From: Sipunculus nudus
Taxonomy: Eukaryota > Annelida > Sipuncula > Golfingiida > Sipunculidae
DNA: 64,000 bases
Assembly: GCA_026874595.1 (NCBI GenBank)
Contig: CM049310.1
Coordinates: forward strand, 49,505,558-49,569,557
Direction: 5' to 3'
Shown here: positions 19,759 to 22,644 of the stretch, in pieces
How the letters are laid out: every line of letters starts with the position of its first letter
Position numbering within the stretch: position 1 is the first letter of the stretch
Notes under the pieces: model-generated
What the model saw: the letters and a program-made list of their open reading frames with translations, nothing else
Database searches by the model: none
What the model was told of the DNA's origin: nothing
Position numbers and translations under genes: made by a program

Positions 19759-20394
19759 TTGATACCATGCACTTTCTGGCCCATCTGCAGATGGGCTTGG
19801 CCCAATAACCGATTTTAGTTTTTGTTAATAATACGTTATTATTTTATTATCTTGATGACTTTTGTATTCAGACAAACATTTCTCAGAACTTAATGTGTTA
19901 ATTGAAACATAAATCACTATCACAGCCTTACATCAATAATTTCATCATCAAAATTACATGGAGTTTAATGAGGTTCACTTTTTACCAAAGAGTAATTACA
20001 GCTGTTGCGAAAAAATCTCATTTACATTACCACATAGATGCGACTTCCACGGTACATACAATTTACTAAAGAGAAATTATATGTGGTACAAATCAGTTTT
20101 TCATATTCATTTTTAATATCCACATATATATCAAGGTTACCACATACATTTTGACAATAGAATAGTGTAATATATGTAGCAAACACTCTCTCATGAGTCA
20201 ATCACAATCATGCACTTTCAGATGTATATCTGTAACTTGTATATATAATCGTTGGATATTGTGTTTTATCATATGTGCTTGCATTTATTTTTCTTTATTT
20301 TTTTCAAATACATAAATAAAACATTTGGTTAAAATATTACTGTGTTTTATTCATTTTTAATCTCAGGTTTCAGAAATTAGGTAAATTATGGTAA

Positions 20395-20720
20395 GTTTCT
20401 CCTTGTAGAGACAACAATTCGAGTTTGTCCCAGTAGAGACAATATATATATATGTATACGATCAGAGTTTGTCCCAGTAGAGACTACGATCGAATTTTGT
20501 CCTAGTAGAATCACCGATTCTACTAGTAGAAAGTCTGATTATGTTGTGGTCTCTGGTTGATTGGAGTTTGTCCTAGTTCAGGCTATGATCGGAGTTTGTC
20601 CTAGTATAATCGCCGATCCTACTAGTAGAAAGTCTGATCGGAGTTTCTCCAAGTAGAAAGTCCGATCGGACTTTGTCCTAGTAGGATCGATAATTCTACT
20701 GGATCAGAGTTTGTCCTGTG
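20395..20720. repeat. Array of degenerate GATCGGAGTTTGTCC units
   Basis: About ten imperfect copies of a GAGTTTGTCCTAGTAG-like unit. Some are interleaved with the 14-bp palindrome TTCTACTAGTAGAA. It ends with CCTGTGACATATG against a (TA)n tract. The terminal bases CCTGTG match the end of the neighbouring element at 19603-19608. I see only one side of it, so it could be the terminus of an otherwise lost TIR element. Confidence 0.65.
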
Positions 20721-20722
20721 AC

Positions 20723-20789
<67 letters not shown>
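20721..20789. repeat. (TA)n microsatellite left of the hammerhead palindrome
   Basis: Over 30 TA units between the GTTTGTCC array and the palindrome. Confidence 0.95.
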
Positions 20790-20792
<3 letters not shown>

Positions 20793-20814
20793 CTCTGGAG
20801 AAAAACAACACTTA

Positions 20815-20862
20815 ATTCACAACAGTCTGTTTCACGGGTTGCGACCCGATCCTCAGGTGAAT
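20815..20862 (-). ncRNA. Type-I hammerhead ribozyme motif (- strand)
   Basis: Read on the minus strand, ATTCAC (complement of 20857-20862) precedes the core CTGAGGA (20850-20856; position 7 may be any base). Then comes a 5-bp helix II, CGGGT/ACCCG, with loop CGCA and a U.U at its base (20834-20849). GAA is 20831-20833, helix III ACA-GAC-TGT is 20822-20830, H17 is at 20821, and GTGAAT (20815-20820) closes helix I with six pairs. Helix II is better preserved than in the + strand copy. The two motifs face each other with their 5' ends toward the palindrome centre. Confidence 0.75.
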
Positions 20863-20881
20863 GTGGTTAGAAACTAACCAC

Positions 20882-20929
20882 ATTCACCTGATGATCGGGT
20901 CGCACCCCATGAAACAGACTGTTGTGAAT
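20882..20929 (+). ncRNA. Type-I hammerhead ribozyme motif (+ strand)
   Basis: All invariant core positions are present. Helix I is ATTCAC (20882-20887) paired with GTGAAT (20924-20929). The core is CTGATGA (20888-20894). Helix II is 20895-20910, three G-C pairs around a short loop. GAA is 20911-20913. Helix III is ACA/TGT with loop GAC (20914-20922), and H17 is T at 20923, so cleavage would follow GUU. Weak points: U.U and C.A mismatches at the base of helix II, and competition from the long hairpin in which it sits. Hammerheads of this size are known in Penelope-like retroelements and retrozymes of animals. Activity is not proven. Confidence 0.75.
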
Positions 20930-21015
20930 TATAAGTGTTGTTTTTCTCCAGAGTTATACCGCTCTGGCCTAGTCTGTAGGCCATAGAGCACTTTACATCG
21001 GAGGGTAACACTACC

Positions 21016-21016
<1 letters not shown>

Positions 21017-21067
<51 letters not shown>
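21017..21067. repeat. (TA)n microsatellite right of the hammerhead palindrome
   Basis: About 25 TA units, ending four bases before the second copy of the 26-bp direct repeat. Confidence 0.95.
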
Positions 21068-21070
<3 letters not shown>

Positions 21071-22644
21071 AGAGTCAATCACAATCATGCACTTTCACCA
21101 CAATAACACATCTTGATACAGTTTCTTTTGGAGAAGTGTCTTATTGATAAACTCTCTACTTAGCATTCGTACAGAATTGTTTGCGTCCTGGTGATGAGAG
21201 CAGCAGGGAAGTCAGACATTTTTTTCAGGTTATCACAGAGATGATGCCAAGTCAAATGTTGTTTTGGCTGCAGGGGTCATTGCCGGATAGTAGTGTCTTT
21301 GCAAAGGCCAGGGATATGTTTTACATATCTTTCACAGTAACATAGTAAAGTTTATTTTTATTTTTAATATATAACAATTTATTAGATACAACTGATAAAT
21401 AAATAGATCTCTAAAACGAGCAATCATCACGATGTTTAATATATAAATATGTTTTAATATATAAAATATAAATATAAAATTTAAATTGTGACAAGACTCC
21501 TTATAAACCATTTTGGATAAATATAATTTATCGAATAAAAAATTAGCTCAGCTTACTAGGAACAATTCAAACTTATAGAACGTGTTTGGATTCGGAACAA
21601 TAAACATATATGTAAAATAAATCTATTTTATATAAATTGAATAAATTATGATAATACGATGGTTTAAATGGCACACTATTTTGATAGGGTTGTGCCTTTT
21701 TTTGTCTAAAAGGCCATATACTATTTTTTATGTCATATAACAGAGTGTACTTTCATTGGTACGTACACAGGCGGTGGCGGAGGCATGTGCTCTGTGAGTG
21801 CTTTCTAGTTAATTTGGTTGTCACTAACACTATAATGACACTTAAGGGTAAACGCATTTAGGTAAGACCAATTCACCAACTTAATATCGGATACACCTTA
21901 CATGATAAATGAAGCACTAACATGGGCAAAGGTCTTTCGATATCCTGCATGGTCCACCTCCCTCTCGTGGATGTTCTTGGCGACGTAAAACAGACTTTCA
22001 ACAGGGACTACTCGTAAATACTTGCTGACCTCTTCCTGAGCTTGGCTTTAGAGGGAATAACAAGTGTGTTGGACACCCCAAGAGCAGGCAAATCCATTTA
22101 AGTTCTGAGAAATGTTTGTCTGAGTACAAATGTCATCAAGATAATAAAAAATAACTTAAAACTAATAAAAACTAAAATCGGTTATTGGGCCAAGCCCATC
22201 TGCAGACGGGCCAGAAAGTGCATAGTATCAAATCCGTTATTGGGCTGCCCATCTGCAGATGGGCAGCCTAATAACGGATCCTCATATGGGCCATGCCCAT
22301 CGGCAGATTGGCCAGATCCGCAGACAGGCTCCAACATATACACACACACTTATATATAAGGGGGTGACGGTGCGTGTAGGTGCAACGTGTATCAGCTCAA
22401 TAGTTAATCCCTAAAAATACTATTAGAGATCTGTGTACATGATAAGCATGTATCTTAATTGCCATGTCGGATGCAGAAACTTCGAAAAAAGTGGTGGTGG
22501 AAGGGGGGGGGTGGCTTGGGCTCATAAACCTGAAACAGTTGGTGCTAGTAGCCTGTCTACATAAATACCGTATCCAGGAGTATAAGGAAGTAAAAAGCGC
22601 GAGACTCAAAATCCTGATCAGCTTTTTGATATAAACAGGAACGT

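Follow-up and report, generated by a model that had tools for sequence, protein, structure and literature searches.

The 64,000-nucleotide stretch of Sipunculus nudus DNA that we analysed (the window) contains a palindromic insertion sitting between two TA arrays, a left (TA)n microsatellite at 20728–20791 and a right one at 21019–21067, which would represent the target. The insertion starts with a left arm (20792–20872, minus strand) corresponding to the antisense 5′ leader of a Penelope-like element (PLE), from reverse transcription (RT) start site 2 (CAGAGT/TATA, the slash marking the junction) to about +2 of the RNA; it is followed by the centre of the palindrome (20873), which differs among copies and would be the junction of two cDNA ends, and by a right arm (20874–20958, plus strand) with the same leader in sense, from about +4. 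At this end only, the right arm continues into a 'tail' (20959–21018, plus strand), the RNA sequence between RT start sites 2 and 1 (CTACCTTC/TA), in which lies a stem-loop, GCTCTGG..CCATAGAGC (20961–20989, plus strand), common to two other PLE families. The inverted arms 20798–20870 and 20874–20946 (73 nt) are 86% complementary if compared ungapped, and 92% complementary over 170 nt when gaps are allowed. To the left of the TA array, the window at 20351–20722 shows degenerate repeats (GATCGGAGTTTGTCCTAGTAG-like), and a 219-bp stretch at the end of the array recurs with 93% similarity at L093 (176–394), a further PLE insertion locus; this looks like a second dispersed repeat ending in (TA)n, serving as target.

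Each arm carries a hammerhead motif, at 20815–20862 on the minus strand and at 20882–20929 on the plus strand. Both units read ATTCAC-CTGANGA-helix II-GAA-ACA/GAC/TGT-T-GTGAAT and pass the type-I test (invariant core, three helices, ends in helix I), with a predicted cut after 20923 in the plus unit and between 20821 and 20820 in the minus unit (20862–20815). In the left arm the core is complete, N7 is G, and helix II has 5 bp above a U.U, all the counted pairs being present; in the right arm the core is also complete, and helix II is weakened in this copy by a C.A mismatch besides the basal U.U; in the palindrome family the mismatched position is usually a C-G pair, broken in 5 of 96 arms. 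These two opposed type-I motifs had been proposed in a previous annotation made from the letters alone (the sequence-only reading), and were confirmed with a descriptor requiring every core base, minimum lengths of 5 bp for helix I and 3 bp for helix II, and a 3-bp helix III; it matched these two sites and no other in the window, and 150 dinucleotide shuffles of the window gave no match. The basal U.U of helix II, which had been regarded as a possible cause of lower activity, has a parallel in the axolotl hammerhead HHR_Amex2, according to the excerpted text of PMC7229834.

The conservation of the motif was evaluated in 48 long-armed palindromes, after dropping 8 of 56 (L065, L013, L057, L060, L054, L055, L066 and L071). 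The core was intact in 40/48 left arms and 46/48 right arms, and the core together with all 13 counted pairs in 34/48 and 35/48, respectively. Within the 48-nt unit, the changes common to both arms of at least three copies fell in loop II, loop III and H17 (T/A), positions that hammerheads leave free, while in helix I one outer base varied in both arms of two copies and in helix III one base varied in one copy. Judging from this pattern in the sequence, the hammerhead motif is probably genuine. The covariance-model search suggested as a check in the sequence-only reading went against it: across the window no Rfam family attained its gathering score, and the 50 matches at E ≤ 10 in 20600–21150 included no hammerhead family. 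No hammerhead match was obtained for the single-leader loci L079 and L098 either, though the L098 unit is intact, and in a control the complete-core hammerhead of a sister PLE family (L099) scored 15.8 bits against a cut-off of 34; thus, the test is weak for the PLE family of the palindrome, and not decisive here. Single-sequence folding of four stretches, none of which clearly beat its shuffles (z = 0.14, −0.36, −0.36 and 0.73, the minus unit being offset by one base), lends therefore no support to the ribozyme. For the window copy, the predicted fold of the plus transcript is a single long hairpin of −158 kcal/mol, in line with the earlier suggestion that the palindrome would compete with ribozyme folding, and for this reason the ribozymes of the window copy are probably idle.

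The palindrome is a dispersed repeat and not a single-copy sequence. In the chromosome-scale genome (1.43 Gb), the palindrome query found at least 82 matches, from 40 scored of 1203 first-look candidates, and the 67-bp tail query found at least 40 perfect 67/67 matches, from 40 scored of 1531; given the fraction of candidates scored, both copy numbers are lower bounds. The common form of the insertion, of about 230 bp and mostly in (TA)n, consists of antisense leader, short variable centre, sense leader and 60-bp tail. This layout is shared by all 40 palindrome-selected loci (the window and 39 others), every one of which has exactly one tail, and pure TA of at least 10 nt is found at the left end in 34 and at the right end in 30 of them. 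All 40 tail-selected loci (including L023) were examined: 22 are two-ended by reading, and 17 have no full inverted arm alongside and continue into flank, upstream leader or PLE sequence, one of these 17 (L074) having a short inverted leader piece. The genome thus also holds non-palindromic copies truncated at other points. A reading of the repeat as a SINE or MITE was dropped when non-palindromic copies with longer upstream sequence were found among the loci of the tail search. Another tail-selected locus (L057) shows, at 1192–1352, an odd 47-bp tandem array of 3.4 copies (96% matches), whose unit contains the hammerhead 5′ strand, CTGATGA, helix II and GAAACA, the remainder of the motif being missing.

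The source of the leader can be recognised in a full-length element (L080), whose two leaders are L077 and L088, with an open frame of 667 aa containing the RT motif YRDD (GLYRDDG). This frame has 3850 homologues at E ≤ 0.001 among the 7993 scored, the best of those listed being 46–60% identical over most of the frame, and its C-terminus aligns with P0001 of Solemya velum, the best match, a hypothetical protein which Pfam calls GIY-YIG (E 1e-05). Pfam-A gave no match at E ≤ 0.001 on the 667-aa frame, only unrelated ones below the cut-off at E ≤ 10, and the Pfam GIY-YIG model had no match in the frame or in five other homologues. As the best match is a hypothetical protein, the assignment to the PLE type rests on the GIY-YIG/RT layout of the homologues and on the structure of the element; judged in this way, the parent element has a PLE-type RT in one long frame. 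A genome search with the PLE gave at least 66 scored matches at 98–100%, of 3501 candidates, with a 713-aa open frame in 60 of the 66; many of them lie in head-to-tail arrays of about 2.9 kb per unit and some are head to head. The tandem and inverted copies with pLTRs and tail that characterise PLEs are therefore all found here, as arrays, a head-to-head pair and a one-sided tail.

In the array unit of L098 the order is TTC/A(+1)TTCT, hammerhead from +12, cut after +53, site 2 at +84, site 1 at +148 and ATG at +233, which places the cut site of the autonomous PLE 180 nt before the ATG. From this order it follows that the window insertion consists of two copies of the PLE 5′ leader. By contrast with this unit, the window gave no match to the PLE frame by tblastn at E ≤ 0.001, and the window copy consists of leader and tail only; on its sequence, it is a product of the PLE family and not an autonomous member. 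The attribution of the motifs to the small type-I hammerheads of Penelope-like elements, put forward in the sequence-only reading, is therefore supported. In a review, all the available PLE sequences are said to bear hammerhead motifs, usually minimal (PMC6155905, excerpt). The idea that a monomeric RNA could be the active form holds inasmuch as the motif belongs to the single-copy PLE 5′ leader, and not to the palindrome.

We consider it very probable that the palindrome of the window is a leader-only, two-ended PLE insertion at one DNA break. The PLE protein would make a staggered double-strand cut, offset by up to about 14 nt, in a target that is AT-rich and usually (TA)n, and both 3′ ends, each finishing in TA, would prime reverse transcription within the 5′ leader of the PLE mRNA: one of them at site 1 (CUUC/UA, about +148), leaving the tail, and the other at site 2 (GAGU/UA, about +84). 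Both cDNAs would pass through the hammerhead and run to the start of the RNA, at the A of TTCATTCT, this RNA being capped and uncleaved, and the joining of the two cDNA ends would produce the head-to-head pair of hammerhead leaders. The hammerhead belongs to the PLE leader and would have played no part in making the template. The sequence itself shows the structure and its copies, the autonomous element, where the arms end, the target duplications and the agreement between arms; we infer the order of these events, the cap, the promoter, the employment of both strands in vivo and ribozyme activity. In favour of this explanation are the many copies sharing one layout, the single tail per locus, the autonomous PLE, the arm ends gathered at +1 to +4, the extra G beside them, the 14-bp duplications, the similarity of the arms within copies and their independent truncation; against it weigh the other duplication lengths, the closer arms found in other copies, the weaker +1 peak of the tail-selected loci, the A found beside some ends at +1 and the missing Rfam match. 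The proposal of a new functional unit formed by the head-to-head pair found no support: it would be, instead, the remnant of a two-ended PLE insertion, and inverted pLTRs have already been published (PMC3846280, excerpt).

A biochemical precedent comes from the protein of Poseidon from Anolis carolinensis (PAc), which in vitro cleaves and extends both target strands, starts reverse transcription at two internal sites matching the genomic tail, and needs no hammerhead cleavage for insertion (PMC11167929, excerpt). The Sipunculus PLE resembles PAc in the hammerhead at the junction of pLTR and frame, the RT followed by a C-terminus that in Sipunculus is only GIY-YIG-like, the AT-rich targets and the two internal RT start sites accounting for the genomic tail (PMC11167929). 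It differs in other respects: helix III is of 3 bp and the cut falls 180 nt before the ATG, whereas in PAc the frame starts at stem II and the cut is 26 bp inside the frame; the tail is about 60 bp, versus the 30–40 bp quoted for PAc; and the Sipunculus start sites are followed by UA, matching the (TA)n target, whereas the PAc starts are reported as non-homologous to the cut DNA (PMC11167929, excerpt).

The target duplication could be measured only at loci in which the microsatellite is interrupted. It is exactly 14 bp in eight loci (L022, L035, L038, L041, L053, L068, L091 and L092), all of them starting and finishing with TA, 15 bp in L036, 13 bp in L054, 11 bp in L047 and L090, and 10 bp in L062, while in L009, L018, L033, L069 and L071 the flanks share just 6–9 bp of TA. 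As the RNA continues with UA past both start sites, the outer TA may derive from the target or from the RNA, so that the eight loci have a duplication of 10–14 bp. These data bear on the possibility that the repeat is a MITE, i.e., a miniature DNA transposon bounded by long terminal inverted repeats and generating TA duplications, whose hammerhead likeness would be incidental. The copies are indeed short, palindromic, numerous and located in TA-rich sites, but the commonest duplication is 14 bp (8 loci) and not TA alone, the centre is variable, the tail is one-sided, non-palindromic copies truncated at other points occur, and the arm corresponds to the leader sequence at the 5′ end of a PLE whose frame is open. 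Neither a fixed TA duplication nor constant terminal inverted repeats were found, and we regard this origin as extremely improbable.

In the rotifer Adineta vaga, Penelope has inverted pLTRs, one of which optionally bears a 31-bp tail (PMC3846280, excerpt). Head-to-head pLTRs, palindromic junctions, one optional tail and target duplications are thus features in common with the Sipunculus insertions; however, the inverted pLTRs of A. vaga sit in longer elements, whereas the Sipunculus insertion consists of two leader ends alone, and the target duplications are of 8–10 bp in A. vaga versus mostly 14 bp in Sipunculus (PMC3846280, excerpt). For the rotifer head-to-head copies with palindromic junctions, a snap-back self-priming was proposed in 2013, in which a palindrome arises when the first cDNA folds onto itself and serves as its own template (PMC3846280, excerpt), and the likeness of the two arms within one copy could be explained in the same way. 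In fact, mean arm divergence in the 48 palindromes is 4.8% within a copy and 7.7% between copies (lowest value in 10,000 permutations, 6.6%), and at seven diagnostic sites the arms are identical in 35/48 copies, versus a mean of 5.6 and a maximum of 12 in 2000 shuffled pairings. Nevertheless, the arm of another copy is strictly closer than the own partner in 36/48 palindromes, none being strictly closer in the other 12, which makes this nearest-arm comparison a weak one. In L050 the arms come from two subfamilies and differ at 4/7 diagnostic sites, which argues against snap-back and suggests that two RNAs were probably used. Moreover, snap-back of the tailed arm should copy the tail as well, whereas all 40 loci have a single one, and the arms hold sequence absent from the partner in both ways, the left arm being longer in L062, L075 and L091 and the right arm in L042 and L060. 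Since the arms were truncated independently and in both directions, a simple snap-back is an unlikely source, and we judge it improbable as an explanation of the palindrome.

To evaluate where the templates ended, the inner arm ends were mapped on the leader in 79 loci, leaving out L065 (the same locus as L031), L013 (a near-copy of L014), and the two leaders of L080. Among 75 right arms, the end falls precisely on +1 in 26 and within +1 to +4 in 42; among the left arms 30/62 end at +1 to +4, L052 and L070 being chance matches among the 62. The window copy ends at +2 in the left arm and at +4 in the right one. The palindrome query favours full arms, and it is among the loci selected with it that the +1 peak is most pronounced; of 37 tail-selected right arms, 9 end at +1 to +4, 9 at +5 to +12, 10 further upstream, and 9 are shorter. 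The sequence TCATTC at the start and GGTCG at +28 to +32 fit the initiator and DPE consensus sequences, so that +1 is probably the transcription start.

When RT copies onto the cap, an extra G would be left, as in other retroelements. The base beside +1 is G in 17 and A in 9 of the 26 right arms ending there; if only bases lying outside the other arm are considered, it is G in 10/12 and A in 2/12 right arms, and C (G in sense) in 5/5 left arms, while long copies read CTTC upstream of +1, with C at this position. This untemplated G suggests a capped template RNA, a reading that falls short of proof because A is found in 9/26 and some centres, as in L053, resemble leader sequence.

The arm ends are also informative on the ribozyme. 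No right arm (0/75) ends at +54, the base immediately past the cut, and only two are within two bases of it, L071 at +52 and L093 at +53 (the latter with an ambiguous join). Since ends at the cut site of the ribozyme are nearly absent, the templates of the leader insertions were mostly not cut by the hammerhead. L071 is a short two-ended copy with both arms ending no more than 2 bases from the cut site, and could be an insertion from ribozyme-cut RNA, the one clear candidate.

The same ends weigh on the hypothesis of a retrozyme-like element spread via circular RNA made by its hammerheads. Animal type-I hammerheads have been reported in non-LTR retrozymes spreading as circular RNAs, with which the Sipunculus motif shares the type-I layout and the weak helix III, as well as the U.U of the axolotl one (PMC7229834, excerpt). 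On the other hand, retrozymes are described in that text as short tandem repeats of about 300 bp (PMC7229834), whereas the window units are inverted, and the ends at +1, with 0/75 right arms at +54 and 2 within two bases, oppose cut templates. Tandem monomers of about 300 bp are absent from the Sipunculus copies examined, in which head-to-tail leaders occur as parts of the PLE units of about 2.9 kb, and there is little sign of ribozyme-cut templates, unlike what is described for animal retrozymes (PMC7229834, excerpt). We consider a retrozyme-like origin very unlikely.

A further possibility, rather doubtful in our opinion, is that leader palindromes represent a SINE-like mobile class, whose arm transcript would be reverse-transcribed in trans by the PLE protein, with the palindrome re-formed at each jump. 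This reading comes from the fact that each palindrome, besides having both RT start sites, shows an apparent downstream promoter made up of most of the initiator and the DPE-like GGTCG at +28. In its extreme version, one RNA on a protein dimer could be read twice, once per break side.

On the way PLEs insert and on the role of their hammerheads, the leader palindromes offer a large natural record: in each of them both RT start sites are preserved, and in many also the stagger of the cut and the 5′ end of the RNA. Returning to the two-ended leader insertion, the copies examined indicate that insertion can proceed from both ends of the break, with templates that often reach the 5′ end of the RNA, may be capped and had not been cut by the hammerhead. 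This record agrees with the in vitro study of the Anolis PLE (PMC11167929, excerpt) and argues against snap-back priming. It is already published that PLEs have inverted pLTRs which may carry a tail, start reverse transcription at two sites and extend both strands; the Sipunculus copies add to this a form made of leaders alone, an extra G beside the ends at +1, target duplications that are frequently 14 bp long and evidence that the templates had not been cut. In the open-licence literature, covered by title and beginning of the abstract, a scope outside which key PLE papers fall, we found no description of leader-only palindromes.

Hammerheads with a different sequence precede the frames of two other PLE families. 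In fact, among 12 upstream regions of other PLE copies, five contain a hammerhead (L099, L101, L102, L104 and L107), those of L099 and L101 being near-identical, and seven (L100, L103, L105, L106, L108, L109 and L110) have neither hammerhead nor stem-loop, which may reflect truncation, decay or a real lack of them. Each of the five hammerheads is accompanied, 89–90 nt downstream, by the stem-loop GCTCTGG..CCATAGAGC (at 834 in L099, 819 in L102, 851 in L104 and 823 in L107, and on the opposite strand in L101), which is found at 910 in L098 and at 20961–20989 in the window. With its 2-nt AU bulge, this stem-loop occurs 73–90 nt after CTGANGA in three otherwise dissimilar PLE families; its folding compared with shuffles gave mixed results, with z = −3.1 for the window tail and −0.6 for the equivalent stretch of L099. 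On the basis of this recurrence, we infer that it is a possible docking, start or recognition structure for the PLE protein. Other PLE arrays were observed at G000:C17:31676499-31690268 and G000:C3:95741832-95748296, with a spacing of about 2.4 kb and open frames of 1483–1560 aa around most matches, more than twice the usual length.
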